Source of the DNA: Limisphaerales bacterium
GTDB taxonomy: Bacteria > Verrucomicrobiota > Verrucomicrobiia > Limisphaerales > UBA11358
Reading direction: 5' to 3'
NCBI GenBank assembly: GCA_025362675.1
Contig: JANYFN010000019.1
Coordinates: 1-36,684, forward strand
DNA: 36,684 bases
Shown here: piece after piece, positions 4,001-29,118 of the stretch
How positions within the stretch are numbered: position 1 is the first letter of the stretch
Layout of the letters: each line of letters starts with the position of its first letter
Notes under the pieces: model-generated
The model's input: only the letters and a program-made list of their open reading frames with translations
What the model was told of the DNA's origin: nothing
Database searches by the model: none
Program-made: the position numbers and the translations under genes

Positions 4001-4305
4001 GCACCACCACGAGACTCGCCTTGAATAATCCGGTGAACTGGTGGCCGATTGATCAGGATTATTTCATTGATGACTTTGCTTTTCGCCGCGATGAACCCAT
4101 TCCGCCGCGGGTGGATTTACGGACCGGAAAAATCCGCCTGCTTGATGTCCAACGTTTCAAGGGCCAAGGTAAAAAAGTTCCCGGCGGCGCGGCGACAGTT
4201 TTAGAATTACCGCTCGACGCGACGAAGGAGTTGAAATCGTTGACTGTGCGCGCGCTCGCGAACGAAGTTGTCCTTGGTCTGATGAGCGTGACCTTGGCGC
4301 GTTGA
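1033..4305 (+). CDS. Secreted DUF4450-type glycosidase-like protein
   Basis: This 1090-residue protein opens at a GTG and has a signal peptide ending near residue 34 (hydrophobic core LGFILLALAICF, then SFAQ). The segment at about residues 75-115 (NGAEFFNRPLYCLNSGFRI, then PEFSLYLPGRGGNL) matches what I recall of DUF4450, found in large secreted proteins of Bacteroidetes and Verrucomicrobia that act on polysaccharides. Residues about 330-720 are rich in W, Y and H with alternating helices (for example WRTRLLGWRGQYAGDALGWH), as in six-hairpin (alpha/alpha)6 glycosidases; the C-terminal part is beta-rich. A hydrolytic role on plant or algal glycans is inference, and no substrate can be named. 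No clear ribosome binding site precedes the GTG. It is followed after 6 bp by a phosphatase-like gene, so the two may be cotranscribed. Confidence 0.75.
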   Translation: MIRKILPLQFKPKPNLGFILLALAICFQQISFAQTKRAGAAARPELNYEPHGNFANNVARPLRYWPINGDFVITNGAEFFNRPLYCLNSGFRIDGGDKPEFSLYLPGRGGNLRLGIKTSGGMKWLNDAAQIVTRYRAGSLIYEIRDPLLDDAELDLTALPLSETKGLILCAKFLESRVPWVSPVKLIFAFGGANGMRGARGGDIGCEREPVGNFFQLKPEQCRGNEFVITTNRFVLHSKAATLAGFFPLGTRLQLVDASKWDARGDLLSTTNAKTELPVLIGELELQTDHEYFLTLQQISSDEKTKVDDLAELFSAAESHRRSIAARVLVATPDPFINAAAAALNMAADAVWDDKQQSFMHGAVAWRTRLLGWRGQYAGDALGWHERTATHFEGFATTQNTDAIPETIPSADEQFNLARSEAAIHSNGDLSKNHYDMNLVGVDAFFRHLLWTGDTNFALAMWPTIERHLAWERRLFRREFGTDKLPLYEAYAAIWASDDLNYSGGGTAHASAYNYFANTMASRVAKILGKDSSIYENEAALILRGMNKYLWLADDGNFAESKDLLGRQRVHPNSGLWTFYHTIDSEVPTPSQAWQMARWMDEHSAHIPIRGVNVPDENLFTLPETSWMPYQWSLNNVVMAEAAHTALGFWQANRAEAAFLLFKGELLDSAFLGLCPGNFGAMTSHDMARGEAQRDFGDAIGINSRALVEGLFGIKPDALAGELKIVPGFPIKWNHASIRHPDVDFEFNRDGLTETYLIKPKFPKSMGLTLQIAALGTEAEVTVNGRSEKWKWIGDLFGVRRIEIANSATERFEVVVKWSGAFPAEKVGPEISVETLKQNPAFDWTNTISSAQKLEAVNLVPCFNDQVTQIFRNEYRSPRSPFASLAIPKQGIGGWCEPNANFEVDDSGLRELSKKNGGKIVLPDGIWFATPGDTSAKNIIFTSQWDNYPREVLVPLTGKSSHAFLLMAGSTDAMKSRFDNGEVIATYADGTTTRLALNNPVNWWPIDQDYFIDDFAFRRDEPIPPRVDLRTGKIRLLDVQRFKGQGKKVPGGAATVLELPLDATKELKSLTVRALANEVVLGLMSVTLAR

Positions 4306-5720: not shown

Positions 5721-6622
5721 TGTCCAGTGATGAGTGACGAGCCACCTTCGGCGAGCAGCGGGTAGGTGCGTTGGGTGGTCACGCGTTCGCTGGCAGATGG
5801 CTGCTCTTGGTGCAGGGGAGAAAATTTATTGGTCAGACCGAACGTCAGCAATAGACAGGCAAAGGCGACGACAATACCCCAGGCGAAGCGCCGAGCCGAG
5901 CGTCCAAAAAATTTATGTGCCACGAGCGCTTCGAGATACACGAGCCAGAGCAGCGCCGACCAAAGGACTTTGGTGTCGGAGAAATACGATTTGCCTTCCG
6001 GTCGCGGCAGCAGCCAGCCCGCGACCAAACCTACTGTGAGCAGAACAAAACCTACGGCCACTAAGCGTGTGGTGATGAGTTCTAGCCTTTGAATTGAAGG
6101 GAGAAACGAGAGAAGCGCGCGGAGTTTGCGGACTTTTAAATCACGCTGTTGAGCCATAAACATTGCCGCCGCCACCGCTGCCAGGCCGAACGCGCCGTAG
6201 GCTTGCAAAATGGTTGCGGCATGCAGGCTGCGCAGCGCGCCAGAGAATTCAGGCTTCGGTCCGTGCGGCGGATCGAGCGACGGCATCAGCGCAAACACGC
6301 CGACGGTGAACAACACCGGGGCCGCGAATGCACAGATGAATTTGAAGCGCGGCATGAGCGCATAAGCCAGTGATGCGAGGCCGAGCGCCCAGAGCAGAAA
6401 GGTGGTTGCCTCGTAGAGATTATTGACGGGGCAACTGTGCAGCGAGAGTCCCCGCTTCGTCATCGCTAACGTGTGCAACGCGACACCAGCAGCGAGCAGG
6501 AAATAATTTACCCAGTCATCGCGGCGAAAACCTTTGCGCCAGAGGAAAACAGAATAGACCGTCGCGCTGCCGTAAAGCAGCACGGCGAGCAAAAAACAAT
6601 GCCGGTCAGTGAACCAAGCCAT
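5717..6622 (-). CDS. Cytochrome c assembly protein, HemX/CcsA-like
   Basis: A 301-residue polytopic membrane protein with about eight hydrophobic segments spread from residue 5 to about 265. The segment SCPVNNLYEATTFLLWAL resembles the conserved region of the PF01578 family (CcsA/CcmC/HemX), which handles haem at the membrane; histidines at LHTLAM, SLHAA and VAHKFFG are candidate haem ligands. It sits directly before hemA with an ATGA overlap, the same pairing as HemX-hemA in many bacteria, where HemX modulates GluTR level or cytochrome biogenesis. No Shine-Dalgarno precedes the ATG. Family is secure; choosing between a cytochrome c maturation role and a HemX regulatory role is not possible from sequence alone. 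Confidence 0.85.
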   Translation of the reverse strand: MAWFTDRHCFLLAVLLYGSATVYSVFLWRKGFRRDDWVNYFLLAAGVALHTLAMTKRGLSLHSCPVNNLYEATTFLLWALGLASLAYALMPRFKFICAFAAPVLFTVGVFALMPSLDPPHGPKPEFSGALRSLHAATILQAYGAFGLAAVAAAMFMAQQRDLKVRKLRALLSFLPSIQRLELITTRLVAVGFVLLTVGLVAGWLLPRPEGKSYFSDTKVLWSALLWLVYLEALVAHKFFGRSARRFAWGIVVAFACLLLTFGLTNKFSPLHQEQPSASERVTTQRTYPLLAEGGSSLITGQ

Positions 6623-6720
6623 GCGAACAGCTTAAATGCCGCGTTGGCCGGTGCAAGCGTGCAATTAAAATTGAACTTTTTAGCGCTGGTTTTCTTTGCC
6701 AAGATGCCGCTACTAAATCC

Positions 6721-8679
6721 ATGAATAATTTCCGAAATGGTGGCCGCTGCACATTTGTTTTGCTGGCAATATCGTTCTTAGTGAGCGCCGGCAGTTTTGC
6801 GTTGCCGGCAAAAACTTTTTGTGAGTTTTATATTTCGACCAGCGGCAGGGATGCGAATCCCGGCACGAAATCGAAACCGTTTCTCACGTTGACACACGCA
6901 CGTGACATCGTGCAGACGATGGTTCCAAGTATGACCGGCGATATCGTAGTTAATCTCCGTGGCGGAAATTATTCGTTGACCGAGCCAGTAGAATTTCGCT
7001 CGCCAGATTCAGGGATCAATAGTTTCAACATTATTTATCGGGCTTACAAAAATGAAACTCCCGTCATCAGCGGTGGCGTCTTGGTGACGAACTGGACGCT
7101 GGATCATGGCCGAGTTTATTCAGCGAAATTAAATTGGGATGGCAAGTTGCGCGGTTTGTTTGTCAACGGGCAGCGCGCGGCGATGACACAAAAAGAATTC
7201 AAGGGCAGAGGAGCCTGGGGCGAATTTATCGTCACCGGTCGCGAGCCGTGGGCGGAGACGCCCGGCAAAACTTTGGACGGAATTCAATTTGATCCGGCGG
7301 AAGTTCCCGCGCTGACCAATCCCTCCGATGCGGAACTCTTGCAGCATCGCACTTGGAATTTTTTGGTGATGGGCGTGCGCGACGTCGCAACGGAATCGGG
7401 CGCGCGCATTTTGAAACTGCAACAGCCCTGTGGTGCGATTGCGGCAACGCTGGCGTGGGGGTGTAACCTCGGTCCCACAAATAATTTTACCATCTGTAAT
7501 GCCTTCGAATTTTTGAATGCGCCGGGTCAGTTTTATTTTAACCGCGTGACCCACACGCTTTATTATTTTGCCCGCAATGACGAGGACATGAGCAAGGCTA
7601 CAGTTATCGCGCCACTCAGTGAAGGGTTGCTGAGACTTTCTGGAAATTCGACGAATAATCGCGTAAAAAACCTTAGTTTCAGCGGTATAACTTTTGCCTA
7701 TGACCATTGGCTGCTGGAAAAAATCGGCGATTCGCGCGGCGTGGTGGGCGTGCAAAGTCTTGGTCTTTACACACGCTTTCGTGCTGATGGCAATCATCAT
7801 AAAAGTCATTACGACATCTTGAATCTGCCGCCAGCGACCGTTGAAATTCGCAACGCAGAAAATATCCGCTTTGAACAAAATTATTTTGTCCACCTCGCCC
7901 GCGGTTCGGCGGTCAGCCTCGTGAACGATGTCGTGGATAGCTCGATTATCGGCAATGTTTTCAATGATATTTCCGGCAATGCCGTGAACGTCGGCCACCC
8001 GCAACACTACCTGATCGGCGATGGCCCGTTGTTCGCCAACGGCGTCGAAGGTGTTTGTGCGCGCGATAAAATTTCCAATAATTACATCCGTAAAGTGAGT
8101 CTTGATTACAAACAAGGCGAGGCCATCAGCGGGTTTTTCACTGAAGCGGTGGAGATCTCACATAACGATATTCAGGGCGTGCCTTATGGTGGAATCGCGC
8201 TTGGCTGGTGGTGGGGTAACGCGGAAATTCCGGCCTCCACCGTGCCAAAAAATAATGCGATTTTGTTCAATCGGGTATTCGACACGCAACAAGAACTACT
8301 GAAGGACGGCGGGGCGATTTATGTCTTGGGCGAGCAGCCCGGCGGGCGCATCCAAGGTAATTACGTTCACTCGCTGACGAGACTGATTTATCCGGATGAT
8401 GGCTCAGCGTTTTGGAACATTTCTAATAACGTCCTCGACCCACAGCCCAATGGTAAGTGGCTGTTTGTATGGACCGATCGCATTCACGACCTGCGGATTG
8501 AAAATAATTTTATCACCGGCACGAACTTGCAAAACAAGGCGACGGATAATTGCACGCCTATTAATACGACGTTGATGAGAAAATCTTTTTCCGCCGAAGC
8601 GAAGAAAATTGTGGCCGCCGCGGGCCTCGAAAAAAATTACCGTAACCTTCCCGGAAAAATTCAGCCTTGGATGAAGTAG
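6721..8679 (+). CDS. Secreted right-handed parallel beta-helix protein
   Basis: A 652-residue exported protein with an N-terminal signal sequence (hydrophobic FVLLAISFLVSAGSFA). It begins with FYISTSGRDANPGTKSKPF followed by LTHARDIV, the standard opening of secreted beta-helix proteins related to pectate lyases and polysaccharide epimerases. From about residue 300 to 600 there are repeated N-rich turns (IENNFITG, ISNNYIRKV, ISHNDIQGV) typical of stacked beta-helix coils. An action on polysaccharide is probable from family; the exact activity (lyase, hydrolase or binding) is unknown. The last 19 bp overlap the convergent rex gene. No Shine-Dalgarno is visible before the ATG. Confidence 0.82.
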   Translation: MNNFRNGGRCTFVLLAISFLVSAGSFALPAKTFCEFYISTSGRDANPGTKSKPFLTLTHARDIVQTMVPSMTGDIVVNLRGGNYSLTEPVEFRSPDSGINSFNIIYRAYKNETPVISGGVLVTNWTLDHGRVYSAKLNWDGKLRGLFVNGQRAAMTQKEFKGRGAWGEFIVTGREPWAETPGKTLDGIQFDPAEVPALTNPSDAELLQHRTWNFLVMGVRDVATESGARILKLQQPCGAIAATLAWGCNLGPTNNFTICNAFEFLNAPGQFYFNRVTHTLYYFARNDEDMSKATVIAPLSEGLLRLSGNSTNNRVKNLSFSGITFAYDHWLLEKIGDSRGVVGVQSLGLYTRFRADGNHHKSHYDILNLPPATVEIRNAENIRFEQNYFVHLARGSAVSLVNDVVDSSIIGNVFNDISGNAVNVGHPQHYLIGDGPLFANGVEGVCARDKISNNYIRKVSLDYKQGEAISGFFTEAVEISHNDIQGVPYGGIALGWWWGNAEIPASTVPKNNAILFNRVFDTQQELLKDGGAIYVLGEQPGGRIQGNYVHSLTRLIYPDDGSAFWNISNNVLDPQPNGKWLFVWTDRIHDLRIENNFITGTNLQNKATDNCTPINTTLMRKSFSAEAKKIVAAAGLEKNYRNLPGKIQPWMK

Positions 8680-9293
8680 CTTAAGTTTTCCAGTTCGATC
8701 GCGAGGTTGACATTGTTCACCATCACATCTTCCGGCACGGCGAGAACGATGGGTGCAAAGTTCAGGATGCCGGCGATCCCGGTATCCACGAGGGTGTTGA
8801 CCACGTTTTGTGCCACGGCTGGGGGCACGGAGAGGATGGCCATTTTGACATTTTTTTCGCGGATAAACTTTGGCATGTCATGCATGCCAAAGATTGGCTG
8901 GGAAATTTTTTTATCGCGTTTACGATCCGGGTCGGTGTCAAACGCAGCGATAATTTCAAACCCTTCTTTTTCAAAGCCGCGATACGAGAGCAAAGCTAAG
9001 CCGAGGTTGCCGACCCCCACGAGAATCACTGGTTGCAGGCTGGACGTGCCGAGTTCTTCAGAAATTTTTTGCAGTAGTTCGTTGACATCGTAACCCAGCC
9101 CACGCGTGCCGAAGGTGCCAAAATAAGCGAGATCTTTCCGCAACTGGGTGGGTTTGACACCGGCCGCCTTGGCGAGGGCCTCGCTCGAAACCGTGCCAAT
9201 ACTGTTCTCGCGTAGCCGCGCCAGACAGCGCAGATAAATCGAGAGCCGATAAATCGTCTTGCGCGGGATCACTTGCCGACTGGTTTTTTTCAC
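8661..9293 (-). CDS. rex: Redox-sensing transcriptional repressor Rex
   Basis: Rex senses the NADH/NAD+ ratio: NADH binding releases it from operators of fermentative and respiratory genes. This 210-residue protein has the N-terminal winged helix (SSEALAKAAGVKPTQLRKDL, then AYFGTFGTRGLGYDV) and the Rossmann nucleotide site VGVGNLGLAL, and ends with the domain-swap helix region NLAIELENLSYF. Length and motifs are standard. It starts at a GTG without a Shine-Dalgarno. A perfect Rex operator palindrome at 9334-9351 lies about 40 bp upstream, so the gene is very likely autoregulated. Its 3' end overlaps the convergent beta-helix gene by 19 bp. Confidence 0.96.
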   Translation of the reverse strand: MKKTSRQVIPRKTIYRLSIYLRCLARLRENSIGTVSSEALAKAAGVKPTQLRKDLAYFGTFGTRGLGYDVNELLQKISEELGTSSLQPVILVGVGNLGLALLSYRGFEKEGFEIIAAFDTDPDRKRDKKISQPIFGMHDMPKFIREKNVKMAILSVPPAVAQNVVNTLVDTGIAGILNFAPIVLAVPEDVMVNNVNLAIELENLSYFIQG

Positions 9294-9333
9294 GGCTGCA
9301 AAATTAAGCCACTAAGCGGCGGGCGGCAAGTGT

Positions 9334-9351
9334 TTGTGAATTATTTCACAA
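9334..9351. promoter_or_regulatory. Rex operator (ROP) palindrome
   Basis: TTGTGAATTATTTCACAA is an uninterrupted palindrome with arms TTGTGAA/TTCACAA around TTAT. It matches the Rex consensus TTGTGAA-N4-TTCACAA and lies 41 bp upstream of the rex start codon. The same site could also influence the gene on its other side, but the neighbour there (phosphatase gene, ending at 9416) is convergent towards it, so rex is the only plausible target here. Confidence 0.85.
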
Positions 9352-9415
9352 TGGCAGATCAATACGCGACGATTGAAAAATCCATTCAGCAAGCGATCGG
9401 AAATAGGCTGTCGTC

Positions 9416-10243
9416 TTAATGGATGCTCACGACCAACGCCGTCGTATTATCGCGCCCAGAATTGGTTACCGAATTGGCGACCAGAATTTTAGCGGCGGCG
9501 TCATCGCTTTCGTTGTGACGCAGAATATCGATCAGTTGGTGATCATAAAGTCCATCCACCAAACCATCCGAGCAGAGCAGGAAAATATCCCCGCGCTGGC
9601 AAGTTACAACGCCAACCTGCGGACTGACAAATTGGTTTGCGCCGCCGAGCGCTTTTTGTAGGACATTGCGGCGCGGGTGCCCACGCGCCTCGCGTTCATT
9701 GATCTGGCCGGTGCGAAAAAGCCAGCCCACGTGCGTATCGTCGGCGGTGAGCTGCGTGATTTCACTCTTCCCTTTCGCTAAATGATAAATCCGGCTGTCA
9801 CCGATGTGGCCGAATATCATTTTCCCCGGCGTGAACCAACCCAGGCTCATGGTGGTTTGCATGCCTTCGATCTCCTCGTAGCTGCCGCCGAGATAAACTA
9901 ATGCCCGGTGGATTTGTCCAAACAGTTCATTCAAAATAGCCGTGGTTTTTTGTCCGTCGTCACCGATTTTGCGGAACGTTTGCGGGAGCAATCGGGTGAT
10001 TTTTTCCACCGCAATGTTGCTCGCGTATTCACCGGCCTTCGAGCCGCCCATGCCGTCGCACACGGCGAAGGCGTAATCGTTTTGCTCCGTGGTGGCCGAA
10101 CCGAATTTGCCGAGGCGGAAAACTTCCTGCGCGTCAAATTGCAGGCCGAGAAACGCGTCCTCATTGTTTTTTCGGAAACGGCCCACGTCGCTACAGCCAG
10201 ACCAATGGAGGGCAGTGGATTTGGGCTTGCTGATTTTTTTCAT
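9416..10243 (-). CDS. PP2C-family (PPM) serine/threonine phosphatase
   Basis: A 275-residue soluble protein phosphatase with the PPM motif series: RKNNEDAFLG, CDGMGGSKAGEYAS (metal-binding Asp), GHIGDSRIYHL, CSDGLVDGL and GRDNTTALVV. These supply the aspartates that bind the two metal ions. Bacterial members dephosphorylate targets of Hanks-type kinases. I choose the ATG at 10243 (MKKISKPK) rather than the in-frame start 51 bp upstream, because it forms an ATGA overlap with the preceding kinase-like gene. Its neighbours (mini-kinase, ECF sigma factor, FecR/TPR barrel, CHASE2 kinase) suggest that it reverses phosphorylation inside one signalling circuit; that link is inference. Confidence 0.92.
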   Translation of the reverse strand: MKKISKPKSTALHWSGCSDVGRFRKNNEDAFLGLQFDAQEVFRLGKFGSATTEQNDYAFAVCDGMGGSKAGEYASNIAVEKITRLLPQTFRKIGDDGQKTTAILNELFGQIHRALVYLGGSYEEIEGMQTTMSLGWFTPGKMIFGHIGDSRIYHLAKGKSEITQLTADDTHVGWLFRTGQINEREARGHPRRNVLQKALGGANQFVSPQVGVVTCQRGDIFLLCSDGLVDGLYDHQLIDILRHNESDDAAAKILVANSVTNSGRDNTTALVVSIH

Positions 10244-10629
10244 ACCGTTTTCGCTTCGGATAAAATGGTGGCGAATTCGAAATCGATCAAACAAAAGCGG
10301 CCGTCGCTGAAACGGTAGGTCACATTGCGGAGGTCGGCATCGTCATGGCGCACGCCAAAAGTTTCGAGTTCGGCAAAGAGCGCCAATCGCCTTTGATCAT
10401 CAAGCCGTTCGACGCGTTGGCCGCAGTTGGTGGTGACGATCTGGGGCATGGTTTCGTCCGCTTCCAGTAAACGCGGAACAAAGTTGCAGCCGCGCGTTTC
10501 GAGGTAGCGCAGGACGCGGACTTCATTGTTGAAACGTTGCGCGGCGTCCGCCCCATGATACGTTTTGAAAACTCGGCCATCGAAGGTGAGATGCACCGTG
10601 GCGCGTAGCGTGTCTTTTACTTTTAGCAT
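10240..10629 (-). CDS. Minimal protein-kinase-like protein
   Basis: With the ATG at 10629 the product is only 129 residues, yet it shows the kinase signature in order: a lysine in the N-lobe (VFKTY, K22), a helix glutamate (FNNEVRVL, E36), the catalytic loop HDDADLRN (H95, D97, N102, exactly HxDxxxxN) and a metal-binding DFE (D116). It ends about 11 residues after DFE, so the activation segment and C-lobe helices of a normal kinase are absent. This is the architecture of very small Bud32/RIO-like or phosphotransferase-like proteins. A TTG at 10665 could add 12 residues. The stop overlaps the PP2C start by 4 bp, so the pair is translationally coupled. Activity is untested; it could also be a pseudokinase adaptor. 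Confidence 0.68.
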   Translation of the reverse strand: MLKVKDTLRATVHLTFDGRVFKTYHGADAAQRFNNEVRVLRYLETRGCNFVPRLLEADETMPQIVTTNCGQRVERLDDQRRLALFAELETFGVRHDDADLRNVTYRFSDGRFCLIDFEFATILSEAKTV

Positions 10630-10688
10630 GATGATGAACGTCTTCCTAGACTCGGCCTTTGGCAAAAACGTCGGCTGCCAAAATGAAT

Positions 10689-11327
10689 TTAGTTCGCCGG
10701 CCGCAATCCAGATTCAATGCGTTTGACTTCTTCTTTGAGCATTTCGGTGACGCGGTGTTTAGCCAGGTAAACCTGATCAATCGGCACGCTGAACGCCTCG
10801 GCTACTTTTTCTGGCTCCCAATTTTTATTCGCGTAGAAATCGAAGATTTGAAACTTGGCCGGGTCTAGTCGCCGCTTCACTTTGGCCATCGCGGCACCGA
10901 GTAGATTTTTTTCCCATTCATCGTTCCAGATCACATCGAGCTGGTGGCTAGCGGGATCAACGTGGTTGTTCGCCGCATGCGTTTCGGTGTCTGGCTCATT
11001 CGTTATCGGCTCGTGCTCAAAATGATTTTTACGTTTGCGAAGTTGATCCGCAATTCGCCAGCGCGTCAGATTCAGCAGCCAGCCTTTGAAGGAACCCAGG
11101 GCGGGATTGTAGTTGAAGTTGGCCATTTGTTTAGCCACACAAAACATGGTTTCCTGAACGACGTCCTGCGCCTCGGTTTTTGTGAGGCCACGTTTTATGG
11201 CCACGCCGTAGATAAGCTTCCAATAAGTGTCGAAAAATTCCTGCCAGCTTTTTTGATCCTCCCAGTTTTTGAGGCGCTTGATCAAGGTGGCACGCGTAGG
11301 AAGCAATTCGTCAGTTTCCGTGGCCAT
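10689..11327 (-). CDS. RNA polymerase sigma factor, ECF-like sigma-70 family
   Basis: A 212-residue protein with sigma region 2 at about residues 25-95 (LIYGVAIKRGLTKTEAQDVV, then GSFKGWLLNLTRWRIADQLRKRK) and a helix-turn-helix region 4 near the C-terminus (EKVAEAFSVPIDQVYLAKHRV). Region 3 is absent, as in ECF factors; a longer acidic linker separates the domains. It directs RNA polymerase to a set of promoters in response to a signal. No anti-sigma factor with an obvious zinc or membrane domain is adjacent. Instead the neighbours are a kinase-like protein, a phosphatase and a divergent FecR-domain outer membrane protein, so control by phosphorylation or by the FecR-like protein is a reasonable guess. 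Confidence 0.9.
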   Translation of the reverse strand: MATETDELLPTRATLIKRLKNWEDQKSWQEFFDTYWKLIYGVAIKRGLTKTEAQDVVQETMFCVAKQMANFNYNPALGSFKGWLLNLTRWRIADQLRKRKNHFEHEPITNEPDTETHAANNHVDPASHQLDVIWNDEWEKNLLGAAMAKVKRRLDPAKFQIFDFYANKNWEPEKVAEAFSVPIDQVYLAKHRVTEMLKEEVKRIESGLRPAN

Positions 11328-11443
11328 GTTACCAGCAATGTAGCCTCCGAGCCGATTTCGTAAATGAAAAAACGCGGTAATTGTTGCGGAGATAGCTAAC
11401 CGCCAGCGCTTTTACTTGTTTAAGCGGCAGCAGTTTACTTATA

Positions 11444-11449
11444 TATAAT
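11444..11449 (+). promoter_or_regulatory. Possible -10 element upstream of the FecR/TPR/barrel gene
   Basis: TATAAT lies in an AT-rich stretch about 20-30 bp before the start. No convincing -35 at 16-18 bp spacing is present (TTGTTT at 11416-11421 is 22 bp away), so an activator or another sigma factor may be used. Confidence 0.35.
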
Positions 11450-11470
11450 GAATTCAATTAGAAGAAATCC

Positions 11471-14400
11471 TTGAAACTTATGCCCAGTTCTCAGAATTGT
11501 ATGTTTCGTGTTCACTGCGCGCTTTTTTGTTGGTTGCTGTTAGCGATTGAACCGTGTCAGGCTCAATCGGTCATCGCACCAATTTTTCCAGGAGAAGTTC
11601 AGATCGAGGCGCTGCGTTTACCCGTGGAGATTTCTAAGGGTGGAACGGCCGTTTGGTCCTCGGCATTAACCAACCAGATTCTTCACGCGGGTGACCATTT
11701 GCGAACGGGAGTAAATGGCCGTGCTACTTTGCGCTGGTCGGGACAAAGCATTGTTTCGGTAAGCGCCTCCACGGAGCTGGAAATTCTCCGGCCGCAACAA
11801 GCCGCCGATGAAAGCGGTCTGCACTTATTGCGCGGCATGGCGTCATTTTTTCATCGCGATAAACCGGGCCGTATTCAAATCATTACGCGCGGCACCATCG
11901 CGGGCGTCGAAGGCACGGAGTTCGTGCTTGCGGTGGACGACACCGATCACACGACGATGTCGGTGATTGACGGACGGGTGAGTTTTGGCAACGAACAAGC
12001 CACGCTGCTCCTGACCAACGGACAGCAAGCGGTGGCCGCGCCGGGACAAGCTCCGGTGCCGACGCCCGGTTTCATCGCCAATAACCTGTTGCAATGGTGC
12101 TTCTATTATCCGGCGGTGATTGATGCCGATGATTTGAAACTTACCGCCATCGAGCAAACCGAGCTCGCGTCGTCGCTCGCGGCCTACCGCAGCGGCGATT
12201 TGCCGGACGCGCTCGAAAAATTTCCTGGCGGCATGCCGACGCTTTCGGATAGTGAAAAAATCTTTCACGCAGCCTTGTTGCTCTCAGTCGGCGAAGTAGC
12301 CGCCGCCGAGGCCGTCATGTCAGCGATCACTGATAAATCGGGTCCGCCGCAAAAACTTTCCCGCTCCTTGCAGCAACTCATCGCCGCCGTGAAGCGCCAA
12401 CATTTTCAGTTGGAACGTTCGCCGCAGCTCGCGTCTGAATTTCTGGCGGATTCCTATTTCCAGCAATCGCTCGCCACCAATAAATCGTCCTTGGCTAACG
12501 CGCTCCAAGCTGCTCGGCAAGCGACGGTCATTTCGCCACACAACGGTTTCGCCTGGGAGCGGGTCGCGGAGTTGGAATTCGGTTTCGGTCGCCTGGCAGA
12601 GTCAGAAACTGCGCTCGACCGGAGTCTCGCGCTGGCACCGCGCAATGCCGAGGCGCTCGCGTTGAAAGGCTTCATTCTCGCCGCGCACAATCATACGCGG
12701 GCGGCGATGGAATGGTTTGATCGCGCTATTGCTGTCAATCCCGGGCTGGGTAACGCGTGGTTGGGACGTGGGCTTTGCAAAATCAGAATTGGCAACGCGC
12801 AGGATGGGCGCGGGGATTTACTGGTCGCCGCGGCCACCGAACCGCAACGCGCTGAGCTTCGTAATTTTCTTGGCCGGGCTTTTGCCGTGGCCGGCGATGC
12901 TCCCCATGCGATCAGCGAAATGGCCATCGCCGAAAAACTGGATCCCAATGATCCGACCACCTGGTTTTATTCGGCGCTGTTCAAACAGCAGCAGAACCGG
13001 ATCAACGAGGCGATTCGCGATCTGGATAAATCCAAAGAGTTGAACGACAACCGCCGCGTATATCGCTCGCAATTTCTGCTCGATCAGGATCGTTCGGTGC
13101 GCAATATCAACCTCGCTGGGATGTATGAGGACGCCGACATGATCACCGTCGGCCAACACGAGGCGGCGCGCGCCGTGAATGATGATTACGGAAATTATGC
13201 GGCCCATCTCTTTCTGGCGGAGAGCTATTTTCCGCAGAGCTTTGACAACAATAATAACTTCACTCTGCGTTACGAAACCCTAGGTGCCAGCGAGCATTTC
13301 ATTGCCGATTTGTTGGCGCCGCCGAATGTCAGCGTTTCGTCGCCGTCCATTTCGCAGCAGACCTACTCCCATATTTTTCTGCACGATGGTTCGCGGGCCA
13401 GCACGAGCACGGAGTATTTGAGTCGGGGAGCGTGGAGCGAAGCCGCCTCGGTTTACGGTTCCTACGGCAACTTCGGTTACTCCGTGTATATGTCGGAAAA
13501 ATATGATCCGGGCCAGCGGCTGAACAGTGATTTTGACTCGCATTATTATACTTTATTACTGAAACAACAGCTCACACCGCGCGATATGGTTTTTGGGGTG
13601 ATCGAACATTACGAAAGCAGCGGCGGCGATTTAGCGCAGCGATATTTCCAGAACGCGGTCGCCGAAACGTATCGTTTTAAGGAGGAACAGCAGCCGAATT
13701 TGACCCTCGGCTATCACCATGAGTGGAGTCCTGGGGTTCACACCTTGGCTTTGCTTTCAAGACTGAATGATTCGTATTCCTTCTACAATTTTGCCCAGCC
13801 TTCCATCTTTGCTGATTATCCGGATATTTCGCCGGGAGTTCCCGGTTTGGTAGCGGTTTCCCCGATGACGTTCACCGAGAATTTTCTGAATCAGTCCACC
13901 ATTTATTCGGGTGAGCTGCAACAGATCTGGGAAAAACCCGACCACACCACCATCTTGGGAACACGCTGGCAGGCGGGAGATTTCAAATCCACCCTCACGC
14001 TCAGGAATGCTTTTCCCAATGCTCCCGAATTTCCTTTGCCACCCAACGTTGAGGACGCACAGTCTGTCAATCCTAAGTTTGATCGGGCGAGCGTTTACGG
14101 CTATCACCAGTGGCAGGTTTGGGAACCGCTCGAACTCATAGGTGGATTAGCGTATGACCACCTACACTTCCCGGAAAATTTTCAGGGCACCCCGGTTTCC
14201 CCCAAGGAAAAAACCGAAGAACAAGTTTCGCCCAAGGCTGGCGTCATCTGGACGCCCGCAAAAAATTCCACCGTCCGTCTGGCTTACACCCGGTCTTTGG
14301 GCGGCGCGAGCTACGAGCAGAGTCAGAGCATCGAACCGTCTCAGGTCGCTGGTTTCGTGCAAAACTTCCGTAGTATCATTCCTGAATCCATCGTCGGTGG

Positions 14401-15085
14401 CACTTCGGGCGGCTCGTTTGAAACTTATAATCTCGCCTTCGAACAAAAATTTCCTACCGAAACCTATCTCTCCTTGTGCGGCGAAGTTTTGAATTCCCAA
14501 GTCCGGCGCGTGGTTGGGGCTTATGATTACTTCCCGGATGAAATTGATTTCCCCTTAGAATCCGGCCTGCGCGAAAATCTGGATTTTCAGGAAAAGTCAG
14601 TGCTGCTGACCCTTAACCAATTGCTCGGAAAAAGTTGGTCGCTCGGTGCCAGCTACCGCATGAGCCAAGCGATTTTGGATGACACTTATCCGGATCTCCC
14701 GGCGAAAATCCCGGGTTTTGTGCGTTCCATTTTACCGCACCAACGCACTGAGGCGATCATCCATCAAGTTGACCTCTCCGCACTATGCAATTTGCCCAAT
14801 GGCTTTTTTACCCGCGGCCACGCCGTATTGTATTCCCAATACAACTACGGCTATCCGGCGGAGCAACCAAGTGTTTATCCGTTCGGTCCGCAGCCCGGTC
14901 AACCTGGCGACACGCTCATTCAACTCGATTTCTTTGTCGGCTATCGTTCGCCCAATCGGAAAATGGAAGTCTCAGTCGGCTTGCTGAATCTCACCGACCA
15001 AGACTACCACCTGAACCCGCTGACGAGTTATGCTGATCTGCCGCGCAGCCGCATGTTGGTGCTCCGGCTCCGATTGGACTTTTAA
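11471..15085 (+). CDS. FecR-domain / TPR / outer-membrane beta-barrel fusion protein
   Basis: A 1204-residue exported protein with three parts. Residues 1-32 are a signal peptide (cleavage near CQAQ). Residues about 40-200 form a FecR domain: GDHLRTGVNGRATLRWS, LHLLRGMASFF, IITRGTIAGVEGTEFVLAV, SVIDGRVSF. Residues about 335-570 contain tetratricopeptide repeats (ALALKGFILAAHNHTRAAME, then FDRAIAVNPGLGNAW). From about 640 to the end the sequence alternates aromatic strands and turns and closes with LRLRLDF, the terminal phenylalanine typical of outer-membrane barrels; it resembles the barrel of TonB-dependent receptors, but no plug or TonB box is visible. It may start at TTG 11471, after AGAAGAAA, or at ATG 11480. 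It is divergent from the ECF sigma gene. A sensor or export platform role is inference. Confidence 0.8.
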   Translation: MKLMPSSQNCMFRVHCALFCWLLLAIEPCQAQSVIAPIFPGEVQIEALRLPVEISKGGTAVWSSALTNQILHAGDHLRTGVNGRATLRWSGQSIVSVSASTELEILRPQQAADESGLHLLRGMASFFHRDKPGRIQIITRGTIAGVEGTEFVLAVDDTDHTTMSVIDGRVSFGNEQATLLLTNGQQAVAAPGQAPVPTPGFIANNLLQWCFYYPAVIDADDLKLTAIEQTELASSLAAYRSGDLPDALEKFPGGMPTLSDSEKIFHAALLLSVGEVAAAEAVMSAITDKSGPPQKLSRSLQQLIAAVKRQHFQLERSPQLASEFLADSYFQQSLATNKSSLANALQAARQATVISPHNGFAWERVAELEFGFGRLAESETALDRSLALAPRNAEALALKGFILAAHNHTRAAMEWFDRAIAVNPGLGNAWLGRGLCKIRIGNAQDGRGDLLVAAATEPQRAELRNFLGRAFAVAGDAPHAISEMAIAEKLDPNDPTTWFYSALFKQQQNRINEAIRDLDKSKELNDNRRVYRSQFLLDQDRSVRNINLAGMYEDADMITVGQHEAARAVNDDYGNYAAHLFLAESYFPQSFDNNNNFTLRYETLGASEHFIADLLAPPNVSVSSPSISQQTYSHIFLHDGSRASTSTEYLSRGAWSEAASVYGSYGNFGYSVYMSEKYDPGQRLNSDFDSHYYTLLLKQQLTPRDMVFGVIEHYESSGGDLAQRYFQNAVAETYRFKEEQQPNLTLGYHHEWSPGVHTLALLSRLNDSYSFYNFAQPSIFADYPDISPGVPGLVAVSPMTFTENFLNQSTIYSGELQQIWEKPDHTTILGTRWQAGDFKSTLTLRNAFPNAPEFPLPPNVEDAQSVNPKFDRASVYGYHQWQVWEPLELIGGLAYDHLHFPENFQGTPVSPKEKTEEQVSPKAGVIWTPAKNSTVRLAYTRSLGGASYEQSQSIEPSQVAGFVQNFRSIIPESIVGGTSGGSFETYNLAFEQKFPTETYLSLCGEVLNSQVRRVVGAYDYFPDEIDFPLESGLRENLDFQEKSVLLTLNQLLGKSWSLGASYRMSQAILDDTYPDLPAKIPGFVRSILPHQRTEAIIHQVDLSALCNLPNGFFTRGHAVLYSQYNYGYPAEQPSVYPFGPQPGQPGDTLIQLDFFVGYRSPNRKMEVSVGLLNLTDQDYHLNPLTSYADLPRSRMLVLRLRLDF

Positions 15086-15543
15086 GGCAGAAAACCCGTC
15101 AGGACGATTGGGTAATTCGTCGTGGGCACGTTATTCGGGAAATAAATCGTGAAGCGATATTTGGCGCTGACGGGCAAATTCGGCACGGTCACACTCTTGG
15201 CACCGCAATCCGTGTCGTTATTCTTGCCGAGATAAACCACTTTGGTATCCGATCGTCCGCCACCATCAGCAGCGGTAAAAACCGTGGTGTTATTCGTATC
15301 TGGCACCCAACCCCAGCCGCTGGCCACCGTTTTCGTATAACTGACAAATCCCGAGTATGTGCCCGGACACGTGCCAATCGTCCCGCTACTAATGGTTGCT
15401 GCGGCAAAAATTTTGATTGAGGTTGGCCCACCAGCTTGTGGGATATCCAATTTATCTGTGTTAATAGCGGGTGTGGTGCAGCCGGTCAGAAATGACGCGG
15501 CGACAACGGTGGCGAGGGTCAACGGAAGGAGTGTTTTTTTCAT
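15082..15543 (-). CDS. Putative lipoprotein of unknown function
   Basis: A 153-residue protein with a clear type II signal peptide: positively charged MKK, hydrophobic stretch and lipobox LTGC with the lipidated cysteine at position 22. The mature part is beta-rich (TSIKIFAAATISSG, YRFTIYF) and has two further cysteines (GTCPGT and TDCGAK) that could form a disulphide. I do not recognise a family. It is convergent with the FecR/TPR/barrel gene and overlaps its stop by 4 bp; it may belong to the same envelope-sensing locus, but that is only position-based. Confidence 0.7.
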   Translation of the reverse strand: MKKTLLPLTLATVVAASFLTGCTTPAINTDKLDIPQAGGPTSIKIFAAATISSGTIGTCPGTYSGFVSYTKTVASGWGWVPDTNNTTVFTAADGGGRSDTKVVYLGKNNDTDCGAKSVTVPNLPVSAKYRFTIYFPNNVPTTNYPIVLTGFLP

Positions 15544-15738
15544 TTTTTCGGTTTTGGTCGGCTAGATGATTTTACCGACAATAGTAATTCGTTGCGTATC
15601 CGAAAAACTTTCAAAAAGATTTCATTTTTTGGGATCGAAAGATTCTATCGGCCAGTAATCCATTCAAAATAAAGTTTGAGCCGGTTACGAATCGGGCTGA
15701 TATCAAAAAGGAATCGCTCGCAGAATATTTTTTCCTGT

Positions 15739-15761
15739 AAACCTTCAGACGAAACCTTCAG
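15739..15761. repeat. Direct repeat upstream of the CHASE2 kinase gene
   Basis: AAACCTTCAG occurs at 15739-15748 and 15752-15761, a 13-bp period, about 50-70 bp before the GTG start of the kinase gene. It could be a tandem regulator site; nothing further supports this. Confidence 0.35.
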
Positions 15762-15811
15762 GCTGGAGCGACGGTTCGTGGGCAAAGTTTTTTACCGCCC
15801 ATCCGGAAGTA

Positions 15812-17782
15812 GTGAGAATTCAAGTCATCATCCACCATCGATATTTCGATTTCGCCGTCGTTGCGGCGTTGTCGGTAATATGTGGCTGGCTGTTGTGGCT
15901 GATGCCGCTCGGCGAATCGTGGAAGCGGGCCAGCTACGATTATTTATTCCGCTTCGGTGCGCGTGCCAACACCAATCAAGTCACGCTGGTGCTCATGGAT
16001 AATTCATCGTTTGCCCAGCTTAAACAAACGCGCGGTGAGCCCTGGGATCGTGGATTGCACGCGCAGTTATTGAACCGGCTCGCGGATGACGGTTGCCGTC
16101 TGGTGATCTTTGATTCTTTTTTTCGTGCTCCCCGCGCGGCGGCGACGGATACGGCGTTGGTCAACGCGTTGCGACGACAGAATCAGGTGCTGTTGATGGC
16201 GGAACAAGCCGAGTTGTCGCATCCCGATTTCTTGGAAGTGCAACCCATTTTGCCGGAGAAAATTTTCTTAGAAGCGGCGCGAACAAATTGGGGGGTCGCC
16301 TGGCTGGATCCGGATATGGATTCTGTGGTGCGCCGACTCTGGCCGTTTCCCTCGCCGGGACCGTATGCGAGTTTACCGTGGCAGGCGGCGAGTTTGATGG
16401 GCGCGGAGCTTTCAACGAAACCGGCGGAACGGTGGTTGCGGTATTACGGGCCAGACGGACCGGGAGCAAAAATGAGTTATTCATTCGCGTTATCGCAGCC
16501 GACCAATTATTTTCACAATCAAGTAGTGTTCATCGGCACGCAACCGAGCACGACGTTGCTGGATGGGGAGGTGGATAAATTTGCCACGCCTTATTCTAGT
16601 TGGACGGGCGAGTCTAGCGCCGGCGTGAAAATCATGGCGACGGCTTACCTAAATCTGCTGAACGGTGAATGGCTCCGCCGTTGGCCCGCTTGGTTTGAAT
16701 TGGGAATTTTACTGGCGTCGGGACTTGCGCTCGGTGTCTGCTCGCGGCTCAAACCGATAACTGTTTGCGTGGTGGCGGGGATGGGTTCCGTTGGAGTTAG
16801 CCTCGGTGCGATCAGTTGGAGTTACTTCACCAACGACTGGTTTCCATGGTTGATTGTAGCGGGCGGACAGATTCCGTGCGCGCTGGTTTCAGTGCTCGGC
16901 ATAAAACTATTTCGCGTCTTTGAATTGAATTCCAAGAACAAAAAGAAAGCGCATAAAATTCCGGTGACGCCGGGCTACGAACTATTTCAGCCGCCTATCG
17001 GAGAAGGTGCTTACGGTGTGGTCTGGCTGGCTCGGAGCCAGGCCGGCCAGTGGTGCGCGGTGAAAGCGGTGTATCAGGAAAAATTCGGCAAAGATCTCGA
17101 TCCGTTCGACCGCGAATTCAACGGCGTTACTCGTTACCAACCCCTTTCTGGAAAATATCCTGGTCTTTTGCGGGTGGAGTTTGTCAGCCAAAAACAGGAT
17201 GGATATTTTTACTATGTGATGGAGCTGGGCGATTCTCTGGTGCCGGGTTGGGAAAAAGATGCGACGTGTTTCAAACCCCATAATCTTGGCGCTGAACGGG
17301 CGCGTCACGACAATCGCCGATTGCCGGTGTGTGATTGTTTGCGATTGGGAGCCGAACTCGCGGAGTCACTCGAACTGTTTCACCAGCACGAACTCATTCA
17401 CCGCGATATCAAACCAGAGAATATCATGTTTGTGAATGGTCGGCCAAAGTTCGCTGATTTTGGACTCATTGCGGATCGTCGGCCCACGGATCAGGTGAAG
17501 ACTTTCGTCGGCACGGCTGGCTATATGCCGCCACCGCCAGAATGTCCCGGCACGACGCAGGCAGATATTTACGCGTTGGGGATGGTCCTATATGTGTTAA
17601 GCACTGGACGGGCGCCAGATATTTTCCCGGCCATCGCGACCACGTTGGTGACGAATCGTCAAACCGAAGATTTTTTTCCGTTAAACCGGATAATCACGAA
17701 GGCTTGTCAGCCGGAGCCGAAGGATCGTTACGCTTCCGCCAAAGAAATGCATGCGGCTTTAAAGATTGCCGCCGAAAAGTGA
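15812..17782 (+). CDS. CHASE2-domain transmembrane serine/threonine protein kinase
   Basis: A 656-residue membrane kinase. TM1 is at about 12-32, then an extracytoplasmic CHASE2 sensor at about 40-285 (VTLVLMDNSSFAQL, VIFDSFF, VVFIGTQPSTTLLDGEVDKFATPY, GVKIMATAYLNLLNGEWLRR). Three more membrane helices follow at about 292-365, a CHASE2 hallmark. The cytoplasmic kinase at about 388-650 is complete: GEGAYGVVW loop (397-402), CAVKAV (K418), HRDIKPEN (D532), DFG (549-551) and a P+1-type GYMPPPPE. It senses an unknown periplasmic signal and phosphorylates Ser/Thr. Start is GTG after a weak GGAAG. The nearby PP2C gene is the obvious candidate for reversing its action. Confidence 0.93.
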   Translation: MRIQVIIHHRYFDFAVVAALSVICGWLLWLMPLGESWKRASYDYLFRFGARANTNQVTLVLMDNSSFAQLKQTRGEPWDRGLHAQLLNRLADDGCRLVIFDSFFRAPRAAATDTALVNALRRQNQVLLMAEQAELSHPDFLEVQPILPEKIFLEAARTNWGVAWLDPDMDSVVRRLWPFPSPGPYASLPWQAASLMGAELSTKPAERWLRYYGPDGPGAKMSYSFALSQPTNYFHNQVVFIGTQPSTTLLDGEVDKFATPYSSWTGESSAGVKIMATAYLNLLNGEWLRRWPAWFELGILLASGLALGVCSRLKPITVCVVAGMGSVGVSLGAISWSYFTNDWFPWLIVAGGQIPCALVSVLGIKLFRVFELNSKNKKKAHKIPVTPGYELFQPPIGEGAYGVVWLARSQAGQWCAVKAVYQEKFGKDLDPFDREFNGVTRYQPLSGKYPGLLRVEFVSQKQDGYFYYVMELGDSLVPGWEKDATCFKPHNLGAERARHDNRRLPVCDCLRLGAELAESLELFHQHELIHRDIKPENIMFVNGRPKFADFGLIADRRPTDQVKTFVGTAGYMPPPPECPGTTQADIYALGMVLYVLSTGRAPDIFPAIATTLVTNRQTEDFFPLNRIITKACQPEPKDRYASAKEMHAALKIAAEK

Positions 17783-18253: not shown

Positions 18254-19294
18254 ATGGCAAAATATAAATTAGAATACATCTGGCTCGACGGTTATGAACC
18301 CGTCGCGAATCTCCGTGGCAAAACGCAGATCAAGGAATTTGCGAAGTTCCCCAAACTCGAAGAACTCCCGATGTGGGGCTTCGACGGCAGCTCGACGCGT
18401 CAGGCGGAAGGCCGCACCTCGGATTGCATGCTCAAGCCCGTGGCTGTCTATCCCGACACCACCCGCAAAAATGGCGTGCTCGTGATGTGCGAAGTCATGA
18501 TGCCGGACGGCAAGACGCCGCATCCGACGAACGCCCGTGCCACCATTCTCGACGACCCCGGCGCGTGGTTCGGTTTTGAGCAGGAATATTTTCTCTACCA
18601 GAATGGCAAGCCGCTGGGCTTTCCGGAAGTGGGCTTTCCGTTTCCGCAAGGTCTTTACTACACCGGTGTCGGCTACGACGCCGTTGGCGATATCGCCCGT
18701 GAAATCACCGAGAAGCATCTCGACCTCTGCCTCGACGCCGGCATCAACCACGAAGGCATCAACGCCGAAGTGGCGAAGGGCCAGTGGGAATTCCAGATTT
18801 TCGGCAAAGGCTCCAAGAGCGCCGCTGATCAGATGTGGATGGCTCGTTACCTTCTCAACCGTTTGTGCGAAAGCTACGGCGTGGATGTGAACTACCATTG
18901 CAAACCGCTCGGCAAAGACGTGGATTGGAACGGCTCCGGCATGCACTCCAACTTCTCCACTGAATACATGCGCACCGTTGGCGGCAAGGACTACTTTGAA
19001 GCCCTCATGGCCGCGTTCGACAAATACAAAAACGAGCACATCGCCGTATATGGACCTGACAATCATCTCCGCCTCACCGGCCTTCATGAAACGCAGTCCA
19101 TTGATAAATTCAACTACGGCATCGCCAACCGTGGCGCGTCCATCCGTGTGCCGCACAGTTTTGCTAACAACGGCTACAAAGGTTATCTCGAAGACCGCCG
19201 CCCAAACTCTCAGGGCGACCCTTACAAAATTGCCAGCCGCATCTTGCAGACCATCGCCACCGTTCCGACGCCTGGCGCTAAGAAAAAGAAATAA
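18254..19294 (+). CDS. glnII: Glutamine synthetase, type II (eukaryote-like)
   Basis: This enzyme makes glutamine from glutamate, ammonia and ATP. At 346 residues and with the GSII pattern it belongs to the eukaryote-type decameric class rather than the 470-residue [83 protein letters not shown] and [12 protein letters not shown]. These supply the metal, glutamate and ATP residues. The ATG has no Shine-Dalgarno. A possible RpoN promoter lies upstream and a strong intrinsic terminator follows, so it is probably monocistronic. GSII lacks the GSI adenylylation site, so control would be transcriptional or by feedback. Confidence 0.96.
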
Positions 19295-22721: not shown

Positions 22722-23573
22722 ATGAAAAAATCCACCCTTGCAAATTTGGTCGTCGCCGCCCTTGTCGGTGGCGTCACGCAAACCTATGCCACCAGCCTGA
22801 ATTATGCTGACTTCTCGAATGTGTCAGGGCTTCAGGTGAACGGCAACGCTGCCCAAGCCACTTCCGGCGATGGTCAGGTGTTGCGATTAACCCCATCCGC
22901 CCCAGGCCAAAGCGGGAGTGCGTTTTCGTTGAATGCAATCGCCTTGAACAGCGGTTACTCGTTCAGCACGTTTTTTAGTTTCCGGCTTTCCAACCCCGGC
23001 GGCATCGGTGATGAGGATGGACAGGGAGCGGACGGCATCGTTTTCACTGTGCAAACCGTTGCCAATACCAGTGGCGGTGCCGGTGGCGGCATTGGTTACC
23101 AGGGTATCGCAAATAGCCTGGGTATTGAATTCGACACTTATAACAATGGAAGCGGACTCAACGATCCGAACGGAAATCACATCGGAATTGATACGGCTGG
23201 AAATATCGCTTCCGTCGCCACCCAAACGTATCCCACGCGCATGAACGACGGAAATGTTCATTATTCTTGGGTTGATTACAATGGCGCAACCGGTCAATTG
23301 GACGTGCGTCTGGCCGATTCTTTGAGCCGTCCGATTGCAGCAAATTTAAGTTACAACTTGGACCTTGGGGCCATTTTAGGTAGCGCCAACGCCTTCGTTG
23401 GGTTCACGGCCGGCACCGGTGCTGGTTACAATGATCAGGATATTCTTAGCTGGCAGTTCAACGACAAATACGATCCGATCAATGGCTCGGTTCCCGATGT
23501 CGGTTTCACGTTTTCAATGTTGGCGTCTGGCCTCGGAGGCTTGATGCTAATTGGCCGTCGTCTCCGTTCCTGA
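22722..23573 (+). CDS. L-type lectin-like protein with VPD-type C-terminal sorting signal
   Basis: A 283-residue exported protein with an N-terminal signal (KKSTLANLVVAALVGGV). The middle shows the legume-lectin-type pattern: ADGIVFTVQ, then LGIEFDTYNNGSGLNDPNGN and HIGID, whose Asp and Asn residues bind calcium and manganese in the family, then WVDYNGATGQLDVRL and FVGFTAGTG. The C-terminus VPDVGFTFSMLASGLGGLML followed by IGRRLRS is a sorting tail: a VPD motif, one transmembrane helix and a basic end, close to the VPDSG-CTERM class processed by a dedicated exosortase. The exosortase is not in this window. It is probably anchored, then cleaved and displayed or released as part of the extracellular matrix. 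Confidence 0.82.
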   Translation: MKKSTLANLVVAALVGGVTQTYATSLNYADFSNVSGLQVNGNAAQATSGDGQVLRLTPSAPGQSGSAFSLNAIALNSGYSFSTFFSFRLSNPGGIGDEDGQGADGIVFTVQTVANTSGGAGGGIGYQGIANSLGIEFDTYNNGSGLNDPNGNHIGIDTAGNIASVATQTYPTRMNDGNVHYSWVDYNGATGQLDVRLADSLSRPIAANLSYNLDLGAILGSANAFVGFTAGTGAGYNDQDILSWQFNDKYDPINGSVPDVGFTFSMLASGLGGLMLIGRRLRS

Positions 23574-29076: not shown

Positions 29077-29118
29077 ATGCCGTTCCTGCCCAGTTCCTTG
29101 GGGGCGCGAATCATTAGA

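Follow-up and report, generated by a model that had tools for sequence, protein, structure and literature searches.

How would a cue outside the cell reach an extracytoplasmic function (ECF) sigma factor that has no anti-sigma gene beside it? Signalling across two membranes to sigma factors is understood mainly through FecR-type anti-sigma relays. In the 36,684-nucleotide stretch of Limisphaerales bacterium DNA analysed here (GenBank contig JANYFN010000019.1; hereafter the window, contig C70 in a draft genome of 4.3 Mb), the FecR domain is joined instead to an outer-membrane barrel, in a protein that we call FecRb, and a Ser/Thr kinase with a CHASE2 sensor domain stands in the anti-sigma factor's place. 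The signalling unit is a set of four genes at positions 10689-17782, encoding the ECF sigma factor, FecRb, a small secreted protein and the CHASE2 Ser/Thr kinase. We consider it probable that these form one trans-envelope module, in which FecRb signals by way of the CHASE2 kinase and the kinase acts on the ECF sigma factor. A first-pass annotation of the same DNA had joined the four with a PP2C phosphatase and a minimal kinase-like protein (the mini-kinase) in a six-gene association. The open reading frame list and the Pfam scan recover all six genes where it had placed them, with the domains it had claimed; the association itself holds for the four, which have a second copy in the same genome, and fails for the other two, which belong to a neighbouring independent locus.

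Gene calls are simple open reading frame picks, and domains were assigned by a Pfam scan with matches read to E≤1. The genome has a second set of these four genes on contig C39, identical in order and orientation, so that the association of the four exceeds chance. The ECF sigma factors of the two sets are 56% identical, the FecRb proteins 45% and the CHASE2 kinases 43%; the small secreted proteins share a weak 24%, that of C39 being recovered by a model of their two-cysteine domain at 8.9e-5. Neither PP2C nor mini-kinase is present within the 17 kb read at C39. Conservation of the neighbourhood in related genomes had been set beforehand as the test that could refute the proposal, and the neighbourhood is conserved there. 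Two of the loci lie outside the window's family: in L202 (family f11) the CHASE2 kinase, ECF and FecRb genes follow one another in that order on one strand, and in L203 (family f6) the window's divergent layout recurs with the secreted protein missing. At a paralogous locus, L002, a 190-aa frame (6461-7033) separates the ECF and FecRb genes; it resembles a DUF772 transposase (8.8e-4, below the Pfam cut-off) and has no anti-sigma match.

FecRb comprises a signal peptide, recognised by eye, a FecR domain, a tetratricopeptide repeat (TPR) array and a C-terminal β-barrel of the TonB-receptor type. Its listed start is TTG 11471, with ATG 11480 or 11498 more likely. In the AlphaFold2 (AF2) model (pLDDT 89.6, pTM 0.88) the FecR and TPR domains precede a barrel whose fold matches TonB-dependent transporters, FecA among them. 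The fusion of a FecR domain to an outer-membrane barrel, noted at first pass, is thus borne out by both Pfam and the model, and FecRb is predicted to be an outer-membrane barrel with its FecR and TPR parts in the periplasm. The Pfam scan finds no plug, no STN and no FecR N-terminal domain; the C39 paralogue likewise matches only the barrel model, with no STN or Plug. The small secreted protein has a lipobox, seen by eye and by regular expression, and a two-cysteine domain of the form 'CPG...C'. Its AF2 model has a pLDDT of 82.9, with no PDB fold match at E≤0.001 and no Pfam family; matches to carbohydrate-binding modules and cupins were weak and were not used. The two-cysteine model finds 18 loci, 15 of which went into its construction, the new hits being L002, L021 and L062 only.

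The pairing of FecRb with CHASE2 was followed with models for CHASE2, kinase, cyclase, histidine kinase, FecRb and ECF, each built from two to six sequences of the window's own genome; distant relatives may escape them. The best 80 of 181 FecRb relatives in the genome collection, together with five own-genome loci, make up a sample of 85. Verrucomicrobiota account for 77 of the 80 relatives, two (L059, L072) are labelled 'bacterium' and one (L033) is from Pontiellaceae (Kiritimatiellota in the NCBI taxonomy). The window's own genome has six CHASE2 and six FecR matches, and all six CHASE2 genes share a cluster with FecR, FecRb or a contig-end piece of FecRb, not always adjacent. Of the FecR genes, the one on C44 (L007) is on a contig without any CHASE2 match, and the one on C286 runs off the contig end; L005 and L006 are perhaps the two ends of one broken-up FecRb gene. 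Across the sample CHASE2 is seen in the available sequence of 56 of the 85 loci; in 14 of the remaining 29 that sequence stops no more than 1.5 kb downstream.

The cytoplasmic part of the CHASE2 proteins at these loci is a Ser/Thr kinase, a nucleotide cyclase or a histidine kinase; the FecRb/CHASE2 front end is shared across the three outputs. Loci of the histidine-kinase version often also encode an Ig-domain protein and a regulator of the sigma54 type. At five loci (L001, L070, L073, L077, L085) the CHASE2-histidine kinase, the regulator, the Ig-domain protein and FecRb stand in the same order, and at L072 they are ordered otherwise. ECF genes go with the kinase output, being present at 15 of 20 kinase-output loci and at none of 19 with a cyclase or histidine kinase (Fisher p=8e-7, uncorrected for ancestry). 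This count covers the 39 typed loci at which an ECF gene is seen or at least 1.2 kb of upstream sequence is available. Twelve typed loci with less upstream sequence and no ECF gene seen were left out (L005, L010, L023, L028, L029, L030, L036, L038, L055, L060, L066, L079), and L011 was counted as untyped, its CHASE2 gene running off the contig and an unrelated histidine kinase lying about 5 kb upstream. Untyped FecRb loci with an ECF gene number four (L011, L019, L025, L059). In a FecRb tree (FastTree, 81 rows) one group of 30 rows takes in every one of the 22 kinase loci together with a single cyclase locus, and the other 51 rows hold 20 cyclase and seven histidine-kinase loci, so that output type needs three changes. 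Since the tree divides by output with so few changes, it is largely a single lineage that carries the ECF association among FecRb loci.

The link between kinase and ECF sigma factor can be followed apart from FecRb. The window kinase has a C-terminal Hanks kinase domain with GEGAYG, a VAIK-type Lys, HRD and DFG, and hydrophobic stretches assigned by eye; HRD and the Lys are conserved in all 24 kinase rows that cover both. Among 49 genomes of the genus (E≤1e-20, with ECF genes found separately) each of the nine relatives that consist of the kinase domain only adjoins an ECF gene (G003:C102, G006:C128, G013:C14, G016:C98, G023:C90, G025:C101, G025:C110, G032:C176, G038:C132). Split CHASE2-kinase pieces (G003:C25, G009:C148) were set aside from this count, as was a stop-bearing kinase piece in G036 with no ECF gene on its contig. 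Within the genus, 19 genomes have the CHASE2 kinase and 17 of these also have an ECF gene, against 5 of the 30 that lack the kinase (p=6e-7, uncorrected for ancestry; CHASE2-kinase pieces in G031 and G036 not scored as present). Class-wide, the ECF family occurs in 80 of 236 genomes at E≤1e-35, and a kinase lies within 1.5 kb of the ECF gene in 18 of the 27 best-scoring loci, often with overlapping reading frames; one of the 18, L181, scores only 90 bits. In the other nine, L175 has FecRb adjacent and eight have neither kinase nor FecRb; five of these eight belong to genus g33, L194 is cut by a contig end, and L177 (=L205) has a kinase about 3 kb off. In genus g33 (L195, L196, L197, L200, L201) the same ECF family occurs with no kinase of the window's subfamily within 1.5 kb, and the distinct ECF copies aligned from it (L196, L200, L201) carry TRKSL.

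The window sigma factor scores above the cut-off of the sigma70-ECF superfamily model. That no recognisable anti-sigma gene stands beside it, as the first-pass annotation had observed, is upheld by the open reading frame list and the Pfam scan, which reveal no FecR-type cytoplasmic sigma-binding domain either. Phosphorylation has been proven for ECF43 factors, such as those of the pairs EcfP/PknT of Vibrio and EcfK/PknS of Xanthomonas, in which sigma2.2 is an uncharged QTTA or STTA with a phosphorylatable Thr, and kinase regulation has been proposed for ECF59, 61, 62, 217 and 283 (PMC8999054, PMC13147305). Other kinase-linked groups keep their acidic residues, by mechanisms described as unknown (PMC8999054); at odds with this, a serine is said to replace the lost charge in ECF59 and ECF60 (PMC8103513). 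The window ECF resembles the kinase-regulated factors in lying beside a membrane Hanks kinase, as ECF43 genes do, and in the lack of an anti-sigma factor, with phosphorylation as the proposed or proven switch. It differs from ECF43 in its sigma2.2 motif, EAQD, in an invariant TRx[S/T]L motif near the N terminus (T11-R-x-T14-L in the window) and in a kinase whose CHASE2 sensor is paired with an outer-membrane FecR barrel. Across 33 aligned ECFs sigma2.2 reads EAQD in 16, EAQE in six, EAED in four and EAEE in three, with EAKD, EAKE, ESEE and DAED once each; because the motif is charged in every one, membership of ECF43 was rejected. Nor does the window protein fit the serine pattern reported for ECF59 and ECF60. 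The TRx[S/T]L motif, invariant in the aligned family, is a candidate phosphosite.

These acidic sigma2.2 residues, mostly EAQD, EAQE or EAED, also mean that the ECF need not be intrinsically inactive, and they lend something to a different explanation: the sigma factor would be controlled solely through transcription of its gene, or else by an anti-sigma factor encoded elsewhere, and FecRb and the CHASE2 kinase would be a separate pathway, or ECF targets, kept as co-regulated neighbours. A promoter-like element, TTGCCAA-N16-CATTAC, does lie just before the ECF start in many relatives (L002, L009, L013, L014, L037 and others). A regular expression finds it in 15 of 23 ECF genes that score at least 250 bits and are of the FecRb type or near it, and a scoring matrix was built from these 15. 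A looser expression misses the other eight, the window's included; among these eight the element is present by eye in L092 and L125 and partly so in L096 and L126, and it is not seen by eye in the more distant ECFs L127-L135. Between its end and the assigned start codon lie 5-6 bp in 14 of the 15 matching cases (22 bp in L095), which suggests that ECF transcripts would be nearly leaderless if the element is a promoter. Kinase loci lacking an adjacent ECF gene, and ECF genes lacking an adjacent kinase, likewise occur. We nevertheless regard independent control as unlikely, because the kinase subfamily adjoins the ECF family even where FecRb or CHASE2 is absent, in the nine kinase-only cases as in the class-wide loci, and because no anti-sigma-like gene is seen beside the window ECF.

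In the trans-envelope module that we favour, a cue at the surface or in the periplasm would reach FecRb in the outer membrane, possibly with the involvement of the small two-cysteine protein. The periplasmic FecR/TPR part would then signal to the CHASE2 domain of the inner-membrane kinase, a step suggested by the recurrent pairing and by published FecR/CHASE2 clusters in other phyla. The kinase would in turn phosphorylate the divergently encoded ECF, taking over from an anti-sigma factor, as the coupling of ECF and kinase genes and the proven phosphorylation of ECF43 factors suggest; the likely target would be the invariant TRx[S/T]L motif or the linker, and not the sigma2.2 site of ECF43. The module would thereby join two units that are also found separately: the FecR/CHASE2 pair as sensor, and a pairing of kinase with ECF that is widespread in the class. 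The first-pass annotation had the barrel sensing a ligand and the CHASE2 kinase/PP2C pair setting sigma activity; the path from barrel through CHASE2 kinase to ECF survives as the best reading, and the part given to PP2C does not. A fuller account, in which the FecR barrel switches the kinase through CHASE2, the kinase phosphorylates TRx[S/T]L as a second, non-ECF43 phosphoswitch, the two-cysteine protein is a ligand or modulator and the front end serves all three outputs, seems to us conceivable as a whole and somewhat doubtful.

Several observations weigh against the module. CHASE2 was not found in 11 FecRb loci with at least 3 kb of downstream sequence (L019, L024, L044, L048, L053, L056, L064, L069, L081, L082, L083), and L019 nonetheless carries an ECF gene. 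Five of the 20 kinase-type loci lack one (L017, L041, L051, L063, L076), and the untyped L025, with pieces of an ECF gene upstream, falls on the cyclase/histidine-kinase side of the FecRb tree. The association of ECF with kinase output reduces to one to three phylogenetically independent pairs, which gives no significance. In genomes G048 and G032 the ECF gene and the FecRb/kinase pair lie apart, and the 12-15 kb of sequence read at the ECF gene contains no kinase of the window's subfamily; L017, which by its coordinates corresponds to the G048 locus, has no adjacent ECF gene. G035 and G045 have the kinase and no ECF gene at threshold. The promoter element of related ECF genes is missing before that of the window, where a degenerate-looking copy fails to score. 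Nor does the element reveal a regulon: TTGCCAA-N15..17-CATTA gives 73 listed sites in the 49 genomes, 11 of them at ECF genes, and because the 62 others are not clearly above the 47 of a reversed-pattern control, we claim no ECF regulon. Finally, since sigma2.2 keeps its acidic residues, the mechanism demonstrated for ECF43 is not directly transferable.

FecRb might also be mainly a transporter or exporter, either a TonB-type barrel or a TPR-porin like PgaA or BcsC, with its expression regulated by the signalling genes, which would make it a target rather than a sensor. The resemblance of its barrel to TonB-dependent transporters is consistent with this, as is the order of TPR array and barrel, which resembles that of polysaccharide-export porins (weak matches to PGA_TPR_OMP, 0.0039, and BcsC, 2.8e-5). 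Some FecRb genes, moreover, adjoin large secreted-looking or Ig-type proteins. At L024, L081 and L083 they stand beside reading frames of more than 2000 aa and at L044 and L048 beside a secreted-looking 673-aa protein, in each case with no CHASE2 match in the sequence available at the locus, and FecRb may therefore have an additional surface role. As its main function, transport or export is quite unlikely in our judgement, for the Pfam scan detects neither plug nor STN in FecRb, and a smaller, barrel-less FecR protein pairs with CHASE2 in the window's own genome (L003), as FecR proteins do in other phyla (PMC5192318, PMC9239204). FecR, rather than the barrel, would on this argument be the constant partner of CHASE2.

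The PP2C and mini-kinase genes, which the first-pass annotation had made part of the sigma factor's control, prove to be a separate locus. Of the 49 genus genomes, counting the window's own, 37 have one copy of the mini-kinase gene, and the copies from outside the window show 70-82% identity. Fifteen of these other genomes also have the ECF gene, and in every one of them the two genes are on different contigs. We read 16 of the 36 mini-kinase loci outside the window (L118-L124, L136-L144). PP2C adjoins the mini-kinase in 15; the sixteenth, L121, ends early. Glutamine synthetase stands directly on its other side in ten (L118, L119, L120, L122, L123, L124, L137-L140), with none seen beside it in L136 and L141-L144, and Rex lies beyond PP2C in L119 as in the window. 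The order in the window is Rex, PP2C, mini-kinase, then the ECF, FecRb, secreted-protein and CHASE2 kinase genes, then glutamine synthetase; with mini-kinase and glutamine synthetase directly side by side in ten relatives, the four genes therefore occupy a gap that is empty there. ECF genes occur in 16 of 37 genomes with the mini-kinase and in 6 of 12 without (p=0.75), so that the two are unrelated in occurrence, and the idea that PP2C sets sigma activity draws no comparative support. The PP2C, mini-kinase and regulator queries were single sequences, which distant relatives may escape. Only 23 bp separate the ECF stop codon from the start of the mini-kinase gene, which has the same orientation, and co-transcription of the two is possible in the window genome, where it would be derived; a six-gene circuit in which PP2C and mini-kinase oppose the CHASE2 kinase is very improbable all the same, since the pair has its own locus, is distributed without regard to the ECF gene and is seen in relatives without the insertion, and both genes were rejected as members. 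Taken by itself, with the cassette aside, this second locus (8661-10665 and 18254-19294) has glutamine synthetase divergent from an APH/Bud32-like mini-kinase and PP2C, with Rex beyond, and the mini-kinase possibly serves nitrogen or redox control.

Comparison with published systems shows which parts of the module are familiar. The BiofilmReg operon of Burkholderiales encodes a LysM-FecR protein and a CHASE2 histidine kinase, mostly with a regulator, and a related operon occurs in P. aeruginosa (PMC5192318); in Campylobacterota most CHASE2 cyclases are encoded in a cluster together with a phosphodiesterase, a TPR protein and a FecR protein of the outer membrane (PMC9239204). In Sinorhizobium meliloti a FecR-domain protein and a TPR protein are among the targets of the cAMP regulator Clr, and a cyclase construct without CHASE2 makes cAMP constitutively (PMC5498481). 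As in the FecR/CHASE2 modules so described, the window encodes a FecR envelope protein beside a CHASE2 sensor enzyme, and a TPR protein is shared with those of Campylobacterota. It differs from them in having FecR, TPR and barrel in one polypeptide, and it adds a Ser/Thr kinase output with an ECF sigma factor and a two-cysteine secreted protein. With FecA-FecR-FecI it has in common a TonB-receptor-type barrel, of which FecA is a fold match, a FecR domain and an ECF gene in one locus. There, however, FecR is fused to an inner-membrane anti-sigma domain, whereas here it is fused to the barrel and the inner-membrane step falls to the kinase; in the Pfam scan the locus shows neither a FecR of the anti-sigma type nor a receptor with STN and plug. 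Likewise FecRb has a barrel of the type found in TonB-dependent transporters, and at E≤1 nothing in it matches an N-terminal Plug. Pairs of FecR with CHASE2 are known already, as are ECFs linked to kinases, and it is their combination that appears new: no description of FecR-barrel, CHASE2, kinase and ECF together was found among the papers listed on CHASE2, FecR and Verrucomicrobiota, in a collection that covers few subscription papers.

Table 1. Features of the four-gene set and of the genes that border it (window positions).
Feature	Position	Strand	Remarks
ECF sigma factor	10689..11327	-	212 aa; proposed circuit output; Sigma70_r2 6.4e-9 (Pfam)
ECF/FecRb divergent intergenic region	11328..11470	no strand	degenerate-looking copy of the promoter element at about 11335-11364, by eye
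FecRb	11471..15085	+	FecR 1.4e-11, TPRs, TonB_dep_Rec_b-barrel 1.1e-13 (Pfam)
Small secreted lipoprotein	15082..15543	-	between the FecRb and kinase genes, antisense; no Pfam family
CHASE2 Ser/Thr kinase	15812..17782	+	656 aa; CHASE2 1.2e-33, Pkinase 1.4e-24 (Pfam)
Mini-kinase, outside the set	10240..10665	-	141 aa; APH-type kinase 6.3e-7 (Pfam)
PP2C phosphatase, outside the set	9416..10294	-	PP2C_2 1.5e-15 (Pfam); partner of the mini-kinase in relatives
Glutamine synthetase, right-hand boundary	18254..19294	+	directly divergent to the mini-kinase in 10 of 16 relatives' loci

Elsewhere the window encodes a 1090-aa DUF4450 protein (1033-4305), a protein with a legume-type lectin domain, here in a bacterium (22722-23573; Lectin_legB 1.1e-33), and a 1030-aa protein with a pro-kumamolisin activation domain (29077-32169).

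What CHASE2 domains sense was given as unknown in 2016 (PMC5192318), and the recurrent outer-membrane partner described here makes that question testable. Loci that share the FecRb/CHASE2 front end and differ in which of the three interchangeable outputs they carry lend themselves to comparison, and for the ECF family the invariant TRx[S/T]L motif amounts to a precise phosphosite prediction.

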